Origin: Phycisphaerae bacterium
GTDB lineage: Bacteria > Planctomycetota > Phycisphaerae > Phycisphaerales > SM1A02
DNA: 43,620 nt
Direction of reading: 5' to 3'
Assembly (NCBI GenBank): GCA_002722935.1
Contig: PBMX01000022.1
Location: forward strand, 1 to 43,620
Shown here piece by piece: positions 8,044-32,900 of the stretch. The number at the start of each line of letters is the position of its first letter. Position 1 is the first letter of the stretch. The translations under genes were made by a program, and so were the position numbers. Below the pieces are notes generated by a model. The model saw only the letters and a list, made by a program, of their open reading frames with translations. It had not been told where the DNA came from and did not search any database.

Positions 8044-10185
8044 ATGTCTCTCTTCTCGTCGGGCTTCAACATGCTGCTGATCATCCTCGGGTTCGGCCTG
8101 TTGATCTTCGTGCATGAACTGGGGCATTTCCTGGCAGCGAAATGGGCGGGCATCAGGACTCTCGGGTTCTCGATCGGCTTCGGTCCACCCATATGTTCCT
8201 GGAGAAAGGGCATCGGATTTCGCGCCGGCTCGACCTACGAAGCCGTGCGAGAGCGAACAGGGAAGCATCCAGGCGAACTGACCGACGAGGAACTCGCCGG
8301 GTACGGACTTGGAGAAACCGAGTACTCGCTGCGCTGGCTGCCGCTGGGCGGGTTCGTGAAGATGCTCGGACAGGATGATGTCGATCCATCTGCATCCAGT
8401 GCACATCCCCGCAGTTTCAACATGCAGTCCATCGGGGCACGCATGGTCGTGATCTCGGCGGGGGGGGTCATGAATCTCCTCCTGGCGGCAGTACTGTTCG
8501 TCGTGGCATTTTCGGCGGGCGTGCGGTTCGAAGCGCCCATCATCGGGATTGTTGCGCCCGGTACACCGGCCGCAACGACCGTTCCGCTCGAAGCCGATTC
8601 CCGGGGCATCGAAGCCATCGGGCTCCAGCCGGGTGACCGCATCCTCTCGATCGACGGGGAGCCGACGAATACCTTCGGCGATGTCCTCATCGCGACCGCG
8701 ATGGGCCGGCCCGACATCGACCTCCGGATCGTCGTCGAGCGTGAAGGAGTCGACGCGCCCATCAACTTCGAGATGGCGCCCGTCAAGAGCGAGGTATCCG
8801 GACTGCTTGGCATCGGGGTGATGCCGGCATCGTCAACCAGACTCATCGACGATCCCGAAGCGATCGAGTTCATCACGGCGGAACTTGATCGCCTGGGCCT
8901 GTCCAGGCAGGGTGTGAAACCCGGCATGACGCTTGCATCCGTGGACGGGCGACCGCTCTCGAACTGGGAGTCCTTCGAGACGATCAGCCGGAACTCGGAC
9001 GGTCGAACACTGGAAACCTCCTGGGTGATGGAGCCTGCCACGGGAACCGATGCCCGTGTATCAGCCGAACTTGAACCACTCCCGGAGTGGGAACAACTCC
9101 GGTACGTCGGGGCATCTCCTTCGATGAGCGTCGGATACGAGCAGGGACTGCTCGGGCTTGTGCCACTGGTCCAGATCGGGGCCTTGACCGAAGGCAGTCC
9201 CAACGAGGGCATTCTCGAGCCCGGTGATGTCGTTCTTCGCATCGGTCGCCACCAGGCTCCACGCATGCGAACATTCCGCGATGCCATTCCAGCCCATGGG
9301 GCCGGCCTGCTGGACATGTCGGTACTTCGAGAGGGCAAGCGGGTCGACGTGCAGGTTCGAATCATGGAATCCGGCATCCTCGATCCAAGGCCGGTGGTGG
9401 GGGTCAACCCGGTCTATGCATGGGATGTGCCACGGATCGCGAGGCCGATGGTCGCGATTGAAACGACGGATCCGAAGACGCAGGAGGCGGGCGAAACTCC
9501 AACCCCCCTTGCCGGCAGGGATGTGATGGGTGGGTCGATCCTTCTGGCGGTTGACGGACATTCCATCGAGGAGTGGACCGATCTCTGGGAGGGGTTGCAT
9601 GCAGCAGCCGTGGCAGGGAGGGATTCCATATCCATCGAGTTGAAGGCACCGACTCCCGGCGGGGAAGTGCAGGTCGTGGAGTTGCCGCTGGATGCGGGAT
9701 CCCGGAGCCGGCTCCTCGAACTGGGATGGTCGCCCCCGATTCCTCTCTACTACTTCGAACCCCTCTACGTCGTACGCAGTGCGGGGGGCAATCCCCTCAA
9801 TGCCATCAGCATGGGCCTCCAGGAAACGACCAAACTGGTCGTCCTGACGTACCTGACCATCGACAGGCTCTTCAGGGGCACGGTCGGTGTCGAGCAGCTC
9901 CATGGACCACTGGGCATCGTTCACCTGGGAACGAAGGTGGCCGATCGTGGATTCACCTACCTGCTGTTCTTCCTTGGCCTGATCTCGGTCAACCTGGCAG
10001 TCATCAACTTCCTGCCGCTGCCCATCGTCGACGGGGGACTCTTCCTCTACCTGGTCTACGAGAAGATCAAGGGACGTCCGCCGTCGGTGGGCTTCCAGAA
10101 TGGTGCGGCGATCGCGGGCCTGCTCCTGATCGCCACGGCATTCGTCGTGACCTTCTACAACGACATCGCGCGCATCATCGGCTAG
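8044..10185 (+). CDS. rseP: RseP-like site-2 zinc metalloprotease with multiple PDZ-like segments
   Basis: FVHELGHFLAAK (HExxH), GGFVKMLGQDD, C-terminal NFLPLPIVDGG (LDG-type motif); 713 aa. Confidence 0.93.
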   Translation: MSLFSSGFNMLLIILGFGLLIFVHELGHFLAAKWAGIRTLGFSIGFGPPICSWRKGIGFRAGSTYEAVRERTGKHPGELTDEELAGYGLGETEYSLRWLPLGGFVKMLGQDDVDPSASSAHPRSFNMQSIGARMVVISAGGVMNLLLAAVLFVVAFSAGVRFEAPIIGIVAPGTPAATTVPLEADSRGIEAIGLQPGDRILSIDGEPTNTFGDVLIATAMGRPDIDLRIVVEREGVDAPINFEMAPVKSEVSGLLGIGVMPASSTRLIDDPEAIEFITAELDRLGLSRQGVKPGMTLASVDGRPLSNWESFETISRNSDGRTLETSWVMEPATGTDARVSAELEPLPEWEQLRYVGASPSMSVGYEQGLLGLVPLVQIGALTEGSPNEGILEPGDVVLRIGRHQAPRMRTFRDAIPAHGAGLLDMSVLREGKRVDVQVRIMESGILDPRPVVGVNPVYAWDVPRIARPMVAIETTDPKTQEAGETPTPLAGRDVMGGSILLAVDGHSIEEWTDLWEGLHAAAVAGRDSISIELKAPTPGGEVQVVELPLDAGSRSRLLELGWSPPIPLYYFEPLYVVRSAGGNPLNAISMGLQETTKLVVLTYLTIDRLFRGTVGVEQLHGPLGIVHLGTKVADRGFTYLLFFLGLISVNLAVINFLPLPIVDGGLFLYLVYEKIKGRPPSVGFQNGAAIAGLLLIATAFVVTFYNDIARIIG

Positions 10186-14829: not shown

Positions 14830-17800
14830 TCAGGGATTGACGGCGCCGCCGCGGGCATCGGTAATGGTGATCGTGTCGATGGCGGGGTCCATGTTCCACA
14901 GGACACTGCCCGCCCTGACCGGGGTGGGGGACCCCTCGGTCAGGATGGAGACCGTTCGTCCCGGAACGGAATCGAGTTTCGCCAGTCCCGTCGACAGGTT
15001 GTAGTCGAAGAGATTGCAGTCCACCCGCCGCCTGGGGGTGCTGATATAGACACTGCCTTCGGCGAACAGCCGCTCGATCTCCATGTCGCGTCCAAGGTCG
15101 AGTACGCCTTCGCCCGGAGCCGATCCACCGCGGCCCTCGGCCTCCTCGATGGGGGCCGTCACGGCCTTGACGTGCTGGGCGGTGATGGTCGCCGTGTCTT
15201 CGTCTTCCATCCCCTTGTAGAGACCCTCGACATCGCCATCCATGTCGATGGTGAAGCCGCCCGATTCATCCTGGACCATGTCCAGACGTCGGGTCCAGAT
15301 GAACCTGGAGACGCCCGGTCCCCTGAAGAGCCCCGATTCGGGAGTCGCGCCGTCGACGGGGGGGGCTTCGCGCAACACGAGTTCGCCGTCCCCGATCACT
15401 TCGGCGCTCGTCTCGAGGTCATTCCACGTGATGTGCTTTGCCGCGATGTAGAACACGTTCGGAATGCTCGCCCGCTGTTCATCCGGCCAGGTCCGCTGCT
15501 CGAGTTTTGCATCACCACGGGCAATCAGTGTTTCGAGGACTCGTGAACTCCGCTCGATGTCGAAGGGATCGTCTTCCTGGTTCTTCCTGAGGTTCGAGGA
15601 CAGCGATTCCGAATCGACCTTGCCGGCATCGACGAACTGGAGCACCATCTTCTGTCCCTCGAGTCGATCGAGTTCATGGGGCTTGGGTTGGGCCACCACG
15701 GCGACATCTCCATCGAGCTCGATGGATCCGGCCCCCTCGTTGAACCTGCTGTCATACTGCATGCTCGTGTTCCACCTCGCCCGCATCGTGACGGAGGCGT
15801 CATCCCCGGGTGCAGGTCGCGGGACCTCCGGTCGATCGATGCGCTGGTCAGCCGACAGGTCCAGTGGTCGGGTCAGGAGTCGTGCCTGCCCGGGACCGAT
15901 CCAGGTCGCCGTGCCGTTTCGACGTTCAAGTTCGACATGGCGACCGTGATCGATGAGCATGTCGTCGCGAGCGATGACGACGTCTTCTCCCGTGAGGACG
16001 ACCTGTTCCTGCTTCGCGTCGGCGACCAGATGATCGGCGAATACGCGGGCGCCATCCGACATGAGTACCTGGACATCGCCGTTGGCCAGGACATCCTTGA
16101 CCCGTGTTCCACTGCCCATGAGTGATCGTGAACCGGTCGGTTCTTCGTCGGGTTCACCCTCGACGTCCTCGACGAGGAACGTGACTTCCAGGTCGTCGGC
16201 CCAGATGGTCTGGTCCTCGTTCTCCGCCTTCACCTGTTCACGGGCCAGCAGCCTCGAGGGGACTGCCTTCTGCTCGTCATCCTTCTCGAAGAACATTCTC
16301 ATCCAGTTGCTCGAGAACAGGCCGTCCGGCGAGACCACGTCCACGTCGCCCCTGAAGATGATGTCCTGAATCGATGGATCATCCGAGGAATCGGTGGAAT
16401 CGAAGGAGATGTCCACTCCCTCGGTCCAGGTGATGTCCAGTTCGCTCTCGGGTGGCGTGTCCTCGACCTGGTCCTCGAGGTCGATCGAGGTGTTCGCAGC
16501 GGGGGGGAGAACCGACACGCTGGCAAGGGCGACCTGATCGCGGTCGAGAATCGAGATCGTCCCGGGATCGATGAAACCGCCTTCACCGCGTTCCTGGGCG
16601 ACCCACAGGTGTGTGCCGCGTGCAAGCAGCCTTGGATCTTCCAGGATGACCTCGCGTCCCTCGTCCGCGTAGAGATCGAACCGGTCCTCGAGGCCGCGGT
16701 AGACAAGGCGATCGCAGGTGATCTCGGTCTGTTCGCCGGCGTCGAAGATGAAGACTGGTGTTCCTTGCAGTTCCGCGAGGGTGTCATCCGGATCCTGGAG
16801 GATCACGCTGCCGGAGTCATTCGCGGGAACCATGATCATTCCATCGTCGCACGTGACGAGGGTGTCATCCGGACCGACGGAAGGGGCAAGCCGATGGCCG
16901 AGTGTCGATGCGAGTACCAATTCGACCCAGTGTGGTTGTGGACCGAGCTCGCGTTGCGGTTCCGCATGCGCGGACGCCATTACGATCGAATCACCCCTGC
17001 TGGACTGGTCGAGCGAGAAGGTCACGTCCAGTTGATTCCCGGTGACCGTTCGGCCTCCCCTGGCATCTCCCTGCATGATCCGGACGTTCTCACGAAGGGT
17101 CAACGTGTAGAACTCGGTGTCCATGGCAGCACTTTCCGGCCCCGATTTCCCCTGCTGCATTGCCACGGGTATGACAGAGGATGAACGTGTCCCGTCGTGT
17201 ACCGGAGGATGCTCCGTCTCGGCACGGCGTGGCCAGCCGGGACGCGTGTCGAGGGCCAATGCACTTGAATCGGGCCGTATCAGGAGGTAGTCCAGTTCGT
17301 TGATCCGCATGAACTTCACGCGGTCGGTGGCATCATCGACCAGAACCTCCATGTTGGAGCCCACCATCTCCTCGGTGGGGGTGTGGACCTCGATTCGTCC
17401 CTTGCAGGTGATCTTCCCGAGGTAGTTGTCGAATGCGACTCGCTCGGGACGCATCTCCACGCTGGGAGGATGCACTGCAGGATCAGCCGTGCGGCCATCC
17501 ACGGGTTCATAGAGGTTGATCCTGACATTGCCCGTGATCCAGCCTTTCTCGAGAGCCCGGTTCGGGGCGTAGGTCTCCGCCTTGTCTCCCTCGATGGTCA
17601 TCAGCCTGTCGTTCTCGAGGAACAACTCGACCTGTGGTCGCGTCATGTCGATCCAGTGGGCCGGAAGATGGGAAGGATTGGGGTCGAGGTGCTCGCAGCG
17701 ATACTGCTGGGATGGATTGCCCCGCTTGTCGGCTATCTGGATCCAGCCTCCACCGGGAAGATCCAGCTGCATGCTCGGATCGAGCATGTCGGTGGAGCCG

Positions 17801-18018
17801 GTTTCCTGCAGAGCGCTTGGGCCGATGAGATCGGTGACATCGATCTCGGCGATGTCGCGTGGCCTTTCAGGTGTCGGCGAGTCGATCGCGAGGACGATTG
17901 CCAGGAGGACGCCGGCGCCTACGACGCCGATGAGTGTCAGCCGGAGAGCAAGATTGCCGCGTCGAGTTTCCCCGCCTTCCTGAAGCAGCATTCGTCTGAG
18001 TCGTCCCTTGTCTGCCAT
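14830..18018 (-). CDS. very large LptC/LptA (OstA)-like protein, putative LPS transport bridge
   Basis: 1062 aa; single N-terminal TM (LALRLTLIGVVGAGVLLAIVLAI), LptC-like GDKAETYAPNRALEKGWITGNVRI, repeated OstA-like strands (KGRIEV, RGDVDVV, NGDVQVL, DGDVAVV, RGDAKL, EGSVYI). Directly downstream of kdsC. Confidence 0.72.
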   Translation of the reverse strand: MADKGRLRRMLLQEGGETRRGNLALRLTLIGVVGAGVLLAIVLAIDSPTPERPRDIAEIDVTDLIGPSALQETGSTDMLDPSMQLDLPGGGWIQIADKRGNPSQQYRCEHLDPNPSHLPAHWIDMTRPQVELFLENDRLMTIEGDKAETYAPNRALEKGWITGNVRINLYEPVDGRTADPAVHPPSVEMRPERVAFDNYLGKITCKGRIEVHTPTEEMVGSNMEVLVDDATDRVKFMRINELDYLLIRPDSSALALDTRPGWPRRAETEHPPVHDGTRSSSVIPVAMQQGKSGPESAAMDTEFYTLTLRENVRIMQGDARGGRTVTGNQLDVTFSLDQSSRGDSIVMASAHAEPQRELGPQPHWVELVLASTLGHRLAPSVGPDDTLVTCDDGMIMVPANDSGSVILQDPDDTLAELQGTPVFIFDAGEQTEITCDRLVYRGLEDRFDLYADEGREVILEDPRLLARGTHLWVAQERGEGGFIDPGTISILDRDQVALASVSVLPPAANTSIDLEDQVEDTPPESELDITWTEGVDISFDSTDSSDDPSIQDIIFRGDVDVVSPDGLFSSNWMRMFFEKDDEQKAVPSRLLAREQVKAENEDQTIWADDLEVTFLVEDVEGEPDEEPTGSRSLMGSGTRVKDVLANGDVQVLMSDGARVFADHLVADAKQEQVVLTGEDVVIARDDMLIDHGRHVELERRNGTATWIGPGQARLLTRPLDLSADQRIDRPEVPRPAPGDDASVTMRARWNTSMQYDSRFNEGAGSIELDGDVAVVAQPKPHELDRLEGQKMVLQFVDAGKVDSESLSSNLRKNQEDDPFDIERSSRVLETLIARGDAKLEQRTWPDEQRASIPNVFYIAAKHITWNDLETSAEVIGDGELVLREAPPVDGATPESGLFRGPGVSRFIWTRRLDMVQDESGGFTIDMDGDVEGLYKGMEDEDTATITAQHVKAVTAPIEEAEGRGGSAPGEGVLDLGRDMEIERLFAEGSVYISTPRRRVDCNLFDYNLSTGLAKLDSVPGRTVSILTEGSPTPVRAGSVLWNMDPAIDTITITDARGGAVNP

Positions 18019-18021
18019 GGT

Positions 18022-18564
18022 TCAGTGCTCCTGCATGGGCTGCGTCATGCGTGTCCTTGACTCGACGAGCGCATCCCATCGTCCCTGGGCCTTCAGAAGA
18101 TCCTCGATGAGTTCTCGGATTGCGCCCTGTCCACCGCTCCTGGCAGTGACATGGCTCGCCATCGCCTTGACCTCGGGAACCGCGTTGGCCACGGCGATCG
18201 GCAGAGCGATCGATCCGAGCATGGGGAGGGCGGCAAGATCATCGCCGACGGCCGCTGTTTCAGAGGCTGTCGCTCCGGCAGCCTCCAGTACCTGCCGGAT
18301 CGTCTCCTGCTTGTCGGCGACCCCCTGGTATACATGCGTGATGCCAAGTTCGGATGCGCGGGCGGTCACGGCTCCACTGCTTCGACTGGTGATGATGGCA
18401 ACGGCATGCCCGGCTTCCTGCCACAGGCGGATCCCCATGCCGTCGTGGACATGAAAGACCTTCGTTTCACGGCCGTCTCCGTCAAGCACGATGCGTCCGT
18501 CGGTCAGGACACCGTCGACATCGAGGCAGAGCAGCCGAATTGAGGCAGCGCGATCAGGATCCAT
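18022..18564 (-). CDS. kdsC: 3-deoxy-D-manno-octulosonate 8-phosphate phosphatase (HAD family)
   Basis: LLCLDVDGVLTDGRI, HVHDGMGIRLW, IITSRSSGAV, AVGDDLAALPML. Confidence 0.94.
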   Translation of the reverse strand: MDPDRAASIRLLCLDVDGVLTDGRIVLDGDGRETKVFHVHDGMGIRLWQEAGHAVAIITSRSSGAVTARASELGITHVYQGVADKQETIRQVLEAAGATASETAAVGDDLAALPMLGSIALPIAVANAVPEVKAMASHVTARSGGQGAIRELIEDLLKAQGRWDALVESRTRMTQPMQEH

Positions 18565-18634: not shown

Positions 18635-19699
18635 TTATTCCTGGACGATCTTCATCGTGACGAGGTCCTGGACGTCAACGAGCCCAACCGGGTGTCCCTC
18701 GGCGTCGACAACTGGTATCTCGTCGATGCGGTGTTCGGCCACAAGTTGCCTGGCATCCCGCACCCGGTCGGTGGCCAGCAGGCTCCTGGGATGACGGGTC
18801 ATGACATTGCTGATGGGCTGGGCGAGGGCCTCACGGTCGTTCATCACCAGTCGACGCAGGTCGCCGTCCGTGAAGATGCCGCTGAGGAGTCCCTGGTCAT
18901 CGATGAGAATGATGGCCCCGGCTCGTCTGAGTTCGCTTCGCTCGTTCCAGGCGACTGCAAGCGCTTCCTCGACGGTGAGTTCATGTGAGACGACAGGGAG
19001 TTCCTCGCCGGCCCTGAAGCGCATGACATCCGAGACCTGGCGGAGGCCCGCGCCGAGCATTCCACCCGGGTGGTGGCGATGGAAGTCGTCCTCGGAGAAA
19101 TCACGCCGCTTCGAGGCGGCCAGGGCCAGGGCGTCACCGCAGGCGAGAGTCGCCGTGGTCGACGTGGTGGGCGCGAGACCGACGGGACCTGCTTCTTCAA
19201 GATCTCCCAGCGCCAGGTGCGTGTCGCAGAGCTTGGAGAGGTGGGTGTCGTGGTTGCAGGAAATGCCGATTCGACACACGCCGTCCGCCTTGAGGATCGT
19301 GGCAAGGTTGAGGACTTCCTCGGTGTTCCCCGAGTAGCTCAGGAGGAGCACGACATCATCCTTCCGGATGCGGCCAAGGTCACCATGGACGGCCTCCGCG
19401 GGGTGGATGACATGGGATGGGAGCCCCAGGCTGCTGAAGGTCGCCGAGATCTTGGCCCCGATGAGTCCGGATTTGCCCATCCCGCTGACGACGACGTGGC
19501 CGGAGCAGTCGGCGATCAGTTTCACGGCCTCCGACCAGTGAGAGGCTTCGCCTCCGGGGTCCGATGCCGTGATCTCGTTGGCGATACGGTCAATGGCCTC
19601 CGCTTCACAACGAAGGACTTCCGCAAGAAATCGGGACTCGTCACCCATCGTGGTATCCGCCTTGCCTTGCGACGTCGATCTGGATGGTTGTGCGCTCAT
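18635..19699 (-). CDS. kdsD: arabinose-5-phosphate isomerase (SIS + two CBS domains)
   Basis: VVVSGMGKSGLIGAKISATFSSLGLPSHVIHPAEAVHGDLGRI, LLSYSGNTEE, C-terminal CBS pair. Start at MSAQPSRS inferred. Confidence 0.94.
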   Translation of the reverse strand: MSAQPSRSTSQGKADTTMGDESRFLAEVLRCEAEAIDRIANEITASDPGGEASHWSEAVKLIADCSGHVVVSGMGKSGLIGAKISATFSSLGLPSHVIHPAEAVHGDLGRIRKDDVVLLLSYSGNTEEVLNLATILKADGVCRIGISCNHDTHLSKLCDTHLALGDLEEAGPVGLAPTTSTTATLACGDALALAASKRRDFSEDDFHRHHPGGMLGAGLRQVSDVMRFRAGEELPVVSHELTVEEALAVAWNERSELRRAGAIILIDDQGLLSGIFTDGDLRRLVMNDREALAQPISNVMTRHPRSLLATDRVRDARQLVAEHRIDEIPVVDAEGHPVGLVDVQDLVTMKIVQE

Positions 19700-19771
19700 C
19701 GTGGGGTATGATGCTGGGGAGAGAATGCCGCACCAGCGTGCATAGTGTACCCCCGCAGGCCGACTTCGACG

Positions 19772-20713
19772 ATGCAAGCCACGGATATGAGCACATCCCG
19801 TAAAGCAGCCCAGGACGACTACGTCATCAGCCTGGAGGCCTTCGAGGGGCCTCTGGACCTGCTTCTGTTTCTCATTCGCCGAGCGGAAGTGGATATCCAG
19901 GACATTCCCATAGCGGCCATCACGGACCAGTACCTCCTCGTGCTGCAGCAGGTCGATGAAGTCGATATCGAGCAGGCCGGCGAGTTTCTCGTCATGGCTG
20001 CGACCCTCATCGAGTTGAAGTCCCGCACCCTTTCGCCACCCGTCGAAACCGGCGAGGATGGGGAGGGGGAAGAGGGCGAGCCCATGGCCGACCCCCGGCA
20101 GGAACTGGTTCGGCAGTTGCTGACCTATCAGCGGATCCGTACGGCCGGCGAGGATCTCGACGAGGCACGGGTAGCGTTCGCTCGTCGCGCGAGGGCCAGA
20201 GTTCGACCATCAGATGATGTATTCGAGTCCGAGGATGACGGCCTGGAACTCGACGACCTCCACCTGATGGACCTTGTTGAATCCTGGGAGCGAATTGCCC
20301 AGGCGATCGACTTCGACCAACTCGGCGCCTCCCACCTGGTCTCGGTGGATGATGCGCCCATAGCGCTCTACCAGGAAGATCTGCTCGACAGGCTGGAGCG
20401 ACGGAAGGGCATGCCCGTCGTGCTGCAGGAGACCTTCGCGGGCAAGACGGCTGCCCAGCGGGTCGGCCTGTTCCTCGCCGTACTGGAACTGGTGAAGACA
20501 AGTCGAGTCAACTGCGCCCAGGAAGGCTGGGGCGAGCCCATCACCATCGAGCTTACGACTGCTTCCGACGAGATGCTGGAGGAGCCTGCCGAGGTTCCCG
20601 ATTCGCAACCGCCTGGAGCTGCTCAACCTCCCACGGAGTCAGGTCACGCCACTGCCCCGGACGAAGACCTTTCAGGTTCAGCGGACCGATCCGAAGACGG
20701 CGAAGTTTCCTGA
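19772..20713 (+). CDS. scpA: segregation and condensation protein A
   Basis: VISLEAFEGPLDLLLFLIRRAEVDIQDIPIAAITDQYL...FLVMAATLIELKSRTL; C-terminal winged-helix region VNCAQEGWGEPITIEL. Start uncertain (also 19787). Confidence 0.94.
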   Translation: MQATDMSTSRKAAQDDYVISLEAFEGPLDLLLFLIRRAEVDIQDIPIAAITDQYLLVLQQVDEVDIEQAGEFLVMAATLIELKSRTLSPPVETGEDGEGEEGEPMADPRQELVRQLLTYQRIRTAGEDLDEARVAFARRARARVRPSDDVFESEDDGLELDDLHLMDLVESWERIAQAIDFDQLGASHLVSVDDAPIALYQEDLLDRLERRKGMPVVLQETFAGKTAAQRVGLFLAVLELVKTSRVNCAQEGWGEPITIELTTASDEMLEEPAEVPDSQPPGAAQPPTESGHATAPDEDLSGSADRSEDGEVS

Positions 20714-31851: not shown

Positions 31852-32688
31852 CTACGTTGCCGCGGCATCCGATTCCATCACGTGTCGTATGGCGGCGACT
31901 TCACGAAGGAGTCTCTCGGCAGCCTCGAGCGTCTGCATCGTACTGCCGTCGGACATGGCCGAAGCGGGATCGGGATGACATTCGATGAAGAGTGCGTGGA
32001 CACCCGCTGCAACGGAGGCTCGTGCAAGCAGCCCGGCGCGATCGGGTCGGCCGGCTGTCACGTCGGCGCCCGCTCCGGGAAGTTGCGTCGAATGCGTCAC
32101 ATCGAAGCAGACGGGGACGCCCAGTTCCATCAGGTCACCGAGGCCGATGAAGTCGTTGACGAGGCGGTGATAGCCGAAGAAGGTGCCTCGCTCGGTGAGC
32201 ATGGATTCCTGGCAGCCGCACGAAGAGAGTTTCTCCAGCGGGTGACTCATCTCGGCAGGGGAGAGAAACTGGCCCTTCTTCACGTTGACCGGCCGGTCGG
32301 TTTCAGCACAGGCCTGAAGCAGGTCGGTCTGCCTGCAGAGGAATGCCGGGACCTGCAGCAGTTCGGCGACCTCTGCGGCCATCGACGCCTGCTCGGGCAG
32401 GTGGACGTCGGTCGTGAGGGGCACGTCGAACTCGTCCTTGATCTTGGAGAGCATTCCAAGGCCTTCCTCGATACCCGGGCCACGATGGGAACGCATGCTC
32501 GTCCGGTTGGCCTTGTCGAAGCTGGCCTTGAAGACCAGGGGGAGCCCCAGGTCGGAACAGGTCTCCTGGAGCATTCCGGCAATTTTCCTGTTGGTCTCCA
32601 TGTCTTCAAGGACACATGGGCCGGCAATGATCCCCAGGGGCATTTCCGGGCCAATTTTGACGTTTCCGATGGAGATATGGGGCTGCAT
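31852..32688 (-). CDS. kdsA: 3-deoxy-8-phosphooctulonate synthase
   Basis: LGIIAGPCVLED, FKASFDKANRTSMRSHRGPGIEEGL, CRQTDLL, VNVKKGQFLSP, FDVTHSTQLPG. Start at MQPHISIG inferred. Confidence 0.94.
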   Translation of the reverse strand: MQPHISIGNVKIGPEMPLGIIAGPCVLEDMETNRKIAGMLQETCSDLGLPLVFKASFDKANRTSMRSHRGPGIEEGLGMLSKIKDEFDVPLTTDVHLPEQASMAAEVAELLQVPAFLCRQTDLLQACAETDRPVNVKKGQFLSPAEMSHPLEKLSSCGCQESMLTERGTFFGYHRLVNDFIGLGDLMELGVPVCFDVTHSTQLPGAGADVTAGRPDRAGLLARASVAAGVHALFIECHPDPASAMSDGSTMQTLEAAERLLREVAAIRHVMESDAAAT

Positions 32689-32900
32689 GGGTACATCGTA
32701 CCCACACGAAGGTTGGAAGGGGAGCACCATTATTGATGCCTTCAGCTCGATTTTCATAGAGGGATGATCCAAACCCCTCCAACATACGTAGGGAGAAGTA
32801 GATCTTCGGCTTCAGGCCTCCCCGGGTTCGCCCGATGGAAGGACTGGAAGGGCACAGGGGTGCCATACAACGTGATGTCTGGCGGATCGTGGAGGTCTTC

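Follow-up and report, generated by a model that had tools for sequence, protein, structure and literature searches.

In E. coli, the LptB2FG transporter extracts lipopolysaccharide, and LptC together with LptA forms a beta-jellyroll bridge to LptD. The number of LptA units per bridge, and whether the bridge is stable or exchanging, are questions that are hard to settle with loose subunits. E. coli does not strictly require a stable LptA oligomer (PMC5575297), and in diderm Firmicutes OstA occurs as two separate proteins, each of about 200 aa (PMC5007114). Planctomycetes have LptD (PMC3422733), and in a survey based on hidden Markov models (HMMs) their Lpt system was rated 'largely reduced' (PMC8871954). 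Searches of open-access full text brought up no account of a natural fusion of LptC and LptA; the two domains may already appear together in public listings of domain architectures.

Here we analyse a gene carried on a 43,620-nucleotide stretch of Phycisphaerae DNA (contig PBMX01000022.1), referred to below as the window. Very probably, its product is a natural fusion in which LptC and about four LptA/OstA-type modules, each predicted to be a beta-jellyroll, form one chain. The open reading frame extends from 14830 to 18018 on the minus strand, starts with ATG and gives a product of 1062 aa. Its assignment draws on the open frame, on an alignment of 35 family members (A1), on Pfam and NCBIfam matches in these homologues and on a collinear profile match to LptC-LptA3 chains.

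The gene is located directly behind the Kdo genes. On the minus strand the order is kdsD (18635-19777, a KpsF/GutQ-type arabinose-5-phosphate isomerase; TIGR00393, 1.4e-73), then kdsC (18022-18564, Kdo-8-phosphate phosphatase; TIGR01670, 4.8e-45), both over cut-off, and then the LptC/LptA-like gene, which a gap of 3 nt (18019-18021) separates from the end of kdsC at 18022, exactly as the preliminary description had it. Among 20 relatives whose synteny we examined, 18 have kdsC immediately before the homologue, even where kdsD is not adjacent. The kdsA gene for Kdo-8-phosphate synthase (31852-32772, minus strand; TIGR01362, 3.2e-96, over cut-off) lies about 12 kb from kdsD-kdsC, and together the three encode, within the window, the steps from arabinose-5-phosphate to Kdo. 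On the plus strand, positions 8044-10185 encode a 713-aa RseP-type site-2 protease, which is long for its family and has PDZ matches separating its two M50 halves.

Inspection of the protein by eye shows one hydrophobic segment at residues ~24-45 (17884-17949, minus strand), preceded by positive residues and followed by no later hydrophobic segment, in agreement with the single N-terminal transmembrane helix proposed earlier. The segment is also present in the aligned homologues and in the LptC-LptA chains of other planctomycete families, and would have the N-in/C-out orientation of LptC. An LptC-like module follows at residues ~88-250 (17269-17757, minus strand), supported by the homologues and by the NCBIfam LptC model TIGR04409, which matches the window protein at 125-225 with E 0.011 (15.3 bits, against a cut-off of 38).

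Beyond the LptC-like module we distinguish four further modules, all on the minus strand and with approximate boundaries. The first, M2 (residues ~302-500; 16519-17115), is OstA-like and possibly composite, perhaps consisting of two degenerate units: residues 428-493 pair with 654-717 of M3 at 94% probability, and within the window protein an HMM built from M2 matches M3 (3e-6). M3 (residues ~524-741; 15796-16449) is the LptA/OstA module in which the best Pfam LptD_N stretches of the homologues fall; in the window protein this model, which describes the LptA domain, matches residues 659-690 with E 0.011 (16.4 bits, against a cut-off of 20.4). The OstA-like modules M4 (residues ~742-902; 15313-15795) and M5 (residues ~903-1062; 14833-15312) are identified mainly through internal repetition. 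M4 is recognised by internal homology only (524-600 against 742-841, 96%, 2E-9), while M5 pairs with M4 (745-839 against 904-992, 92.5%) and is also matched in some homologues, at reference positions 975-1044, by an LptA HMM derived from the chains of other families. All eight short strand motifs that the preliminary description had listed as recurring were located in the protein: TGNVRI at residue 162, KGRIEV at 206, RGDVDVV at 556, NGDVQVL at 646, DGDVAVV at 769, RGDAKL at 834, DGDVEGL at 927 and EGSVYI at 987.

Taken by itself, the window protein scores under the cut-off of every curated model, and the domain assignment is carried by its relatives. Of 101 genomes from the same family, 97 gave a homologue, covering all 45 genera sampled, and the closest relative with a name, at 83% identity, is a metagenome bin assigned to Phycisphaerales. 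The extracted full-length homologues measure 876-1441 aa. With the profile of the 35 homologues, matches extend throughout the class, in frames of 776-1468 aa, and weakly into other classes. An assembly artefact is ruled out by the recurrence of the long open frame across the family. A 1751-aa candidate from another genome (G245) was dropped, as its frame gave an implausible protein.

Among the 35 homologues, Pfam detects LptC in 13 (best 2.4e-7) and LptD_N in 21 (best 1.9e-7), and NCBIfam detects LptC in 26 (best 7.4e-8) and LptA in five. When homologues above the cut-off are examined singly, the LptC match is the N-terminal module and the LptD_N match the central one: in the homologue L039, Pfam LptC covers 88-220 of the N-terminal module (2.4e-7, 31 against 21 bits), and in L046 LptD_N reaches 28.3 bits, over its cut-off. 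The LptC-like segment proposed for the N-terminus is thus borne out at family level, the window protein itself being sub-threshold (E 0.011), and OstA/LptA matches do occur outside the N-terminus.

These matches also bear on a different identity for the protein. Members of the TamB/YhdP/AsmA superfamily have an N-terminal anchor and a long beta groove, and the gross anatomy of our protein, an N-terminal helix followed by a long repetitive beta chain, is alike; it could then be a bridge-like lipid transfer protein of this kind, with phospholipid rather than lipopolysaccharide as its cargo. We regard this as extremely improbable, since LptC and LptD_N recur among the Pfam matches of the 35 homologues while no such family appears among them, and the neighbouring genes are those for Kdo.

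The tandem organization was assessed by comparing profile windows of the 35-member family with one another (hhalign). Internal repeat pairs were recovered at 80-96% probability, whereas none of 576 control comparisons using reversed profiles scored above 29%. M3 is tandemly duplicated in L034, L041 and L033, three homologues with lengths of 1193-1441 aa, both copies being recognised at E 7e-28 or better, and the alignment shows that part of M2 is missing from some shorter homologues. The length of the chain therefore changes by whole modules.

The family alignment further shows that the modules are separated by low-complexity linkers of variable length. Such linkers would be compatible with a fusion that is translated as one chain and then cut in the periplasm into LptC and LptA parts, leaving an ordinary, non-covalent working bridge. 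However, the linkers vary freely among relatives and, by eye, the alignment contains no conserved cleavage motif, which makes processing very unlikely.

With the window protein and one 83%-identical relative as input, AlphaFold returned a pLDDT of 26 for the full chain and of 43 for residues 527-720, a segment modelled as all-beta; confidence is very low in both models. A Foldseek search with this low-confidence model gave no match at E<=0.001, the highest probability (0.72) belonging to E. coli LptA (2r1a, E 0.14), and we do not count it as support. Single E. coli LptA and LptC sequences showed no significant match to the family profile, and the PDB sequence search with this profile returned weak LptD matches only (E 0.53 and 1.4), ranking below a chance-like match to MarR.

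Clearer relatives of the chain are found elsewhere in Planctomycetota. Pfam LptC matches occur in 56 of 250 genomes of the phylum, and in 40 of these 56, a figure we counted from two listings, the same open frame (or the same gene on a fragmented contig) also has up to three LptA matches. Chains of ~640-735 aa from other families of the phylum carry one LptC and as many as three LptA domains over curated cut-offs. We aligned 16 such LptC and LptA chains of 650-723 aa (A4); all 16 have both Pfam domains, with best values of 4.2e-37 for LptD_N and 4.1e-20 for LptC. In one 655-aa chain, the LptA equivalog model matches three stretches (3e-38) and the LptC equivalog model is also found (5.3e-14), both over cut-off.

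The A1 and A4 profiles are collinear from the LptC module onward (96.7%, 3.6E-10). At iE<=0.01, the LptA-module HMM derived from A4 identifies 28 domains among the 35 homologues, and the reversed sequences yield none. The corresponding LptC-module HMM finds nothing in the family at iE<=0.01, so that the link to LptC depends on the curated models together with the collinearity of the profiles.

Long chains are also seen elsewhere in the phylum: in one of 1112 aa, residues 141-235 match LptC over cut-off and residues 690-757 form an LptA-type domain. A protein of 1690 aa from another family (L186:2748-7817, plus strand) has an N-terminal anchor and an LptC match at 2.2e-5, and is possibly a still longer single-chain bridge. 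The unfused state occupies the same slot in a genome of another family (G122; L192:3010-4969, minus strand), where kdsD-kdsC is followed by a stand-alone canonical LptC of 174 aa, suggesting that the fusion arose at the kdsC-adjacent locus.

We looked for separate LptA and LptC genes in two ways. In 61 genomes of the family, all chosen for 90% completeness except the bin from which the window comes, neither PF06835 nor PF03968 gave a match outside the homologue gene; the generic Pfam LptD_N model has matches in 2 of these 61 genomes and misses most homologues, so that this negative weighs little when taken alone. We also used a mixed, family-specific module profile (A5), which is far more sensitive. 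It recovered the homologue gene from all 41 genomes searched, at E 8e-10 or better, and no other open frame at E<=0.01 in the same genomes. Neither search found an lptA or lptC of normal size elsewhere in the genomes covered.

The same searches address the reading in which the protein is an LptC whose long C-terminal beta extension serves another purpose, the bridge being made by a strongly diverged separate LptA that the profiles miss. A diverged LptA could indeed escape the generic model, which overlooks most homologues, and the bin of origin is 65% complete. Against this stand the module profile, which retrieves the homologue in every genome and nothing else, and the chains of other families, which hold bona fide LptA domains within the same polypeptide. 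We consider this reading very unlikely.

A search for the remaining components, as called for in the preliminary description, succeeded in part. LptB and LptD are both over cut-off in the genome of origin, but LptF and LptG were not found in this 65%-complete bin, whereas the LptF/LptG family is present in a genome of the same genus (G004) and in 39 of 41 genomes. The LptD (1034 aa; L087:2999-6100, minus strand, contig C41) has its Pfam barrel match from about residue 567, leaving a pre-barrel part of ~500 aa that is much longer than that of E. coli LptD. A profile comparison of this N-terminal region with the family modules gave no match above the reversed null. One LptF/LptG-type permease, seen at L089:3546-5240 (minus strand) and L091:2511-4181 (plus strand), is enlarged to ~560 aa, a long insert dividing its family match into two parts.

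The proposal that an inner-membrane anchor and several LptA-like modules are fused in one polypeptide is thus supported by domain matches, tandem repeats, the collinear A4 chains and gene context. At the level of sequence, the protein has an anchor, homology to LptC and LptA, tandem modules and a conserved gene order, with no detectable separate LptA; we infer the fold, expected to be V-shaped beta-jellyrolls (an open beta-taco), the continuity of the groove, docking to LptF/G and LptD, the cargo and the span. By analogy with E. coli, the protein most likely acts as the whole or most of the LptC-LptA bridge in one chain. Its N-terminal helix would anchor the chain in the inner membrane, where the LptB2FG transporter would hand lipopolysaccharide over to the LptC module. 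The single chain would replace separate lptC and lptA, occupying their usual slot behind kdsD-kdsC.

If each strand takes up ~12 residues, rungs are spaced 4.8 Angstrom apart in two sheets and linkers account for no more than one fifth of the 975 residues in the periplasm, such a bridge would span roughly 14-19 nm. We tentatively raise the possibility, which we hold with limited confidence, that one polypeptide makes up the whole bridge to LptD, that the number of modules fixes its length and thereby matches or sets the local width of the planctomycete periplasm, and that gain and loss of modules (876-1441 aa) track envelope geometry.

The apparent LptC-LptA fusion is common in Planctomycetota, and with it one gene would determine how long the bridge is. 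The 'largely reduced' score of the Lpt system in the earlier survey would be explained, because LptA and LptC are fused and, in Phycisphaerae, have diverged beyond the curated models. In a natural covalent bridge, stoichiometry and order are fixed, so that removing modules offers a direct test of span, continuity and module function.

Compared with described systems, the protein resembles LptC (PF06835 / TIGR04409, E. coli b3199) in having an N-terminal anchor followed by a putative LptC domain, and in being encoded directly behind kdsC. However, LptC of E. coli has ~190 aa as opposed to 1062 aa here, where the chain continues into LptA-like modules. With LptA (PF03968 / TIGR03002, E. coli b3200) it shares, by prediction, OstA-type modules with the recurring strand pattern GxVxV - AdxL - GxVxV, which are in tandem here. 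E. coli LptA is a single soluble domain of ~185 aa with its own signal peptide that forms non-covalent oligomers, whereas the window protein holds several modules in one anchored chain and has no signal peptide of its own; since its LptA modules are fused in an anchored chain, we name it a fusion and not LptA. The likeness to TamB/YhdP/AsmA-like bridge proteins is one of manner of working only, an anchored protein with an expected long beta groove, and the gene context differs. The closest counterparts are the LptC-LptA3 chains of other planctomycete families, which likewise consist of an anchor, LptC and then LptA modules with collinear profiles, and from which the Phycisphaerales chain differs in being longer, in its extra modules and in its far greater divergence.
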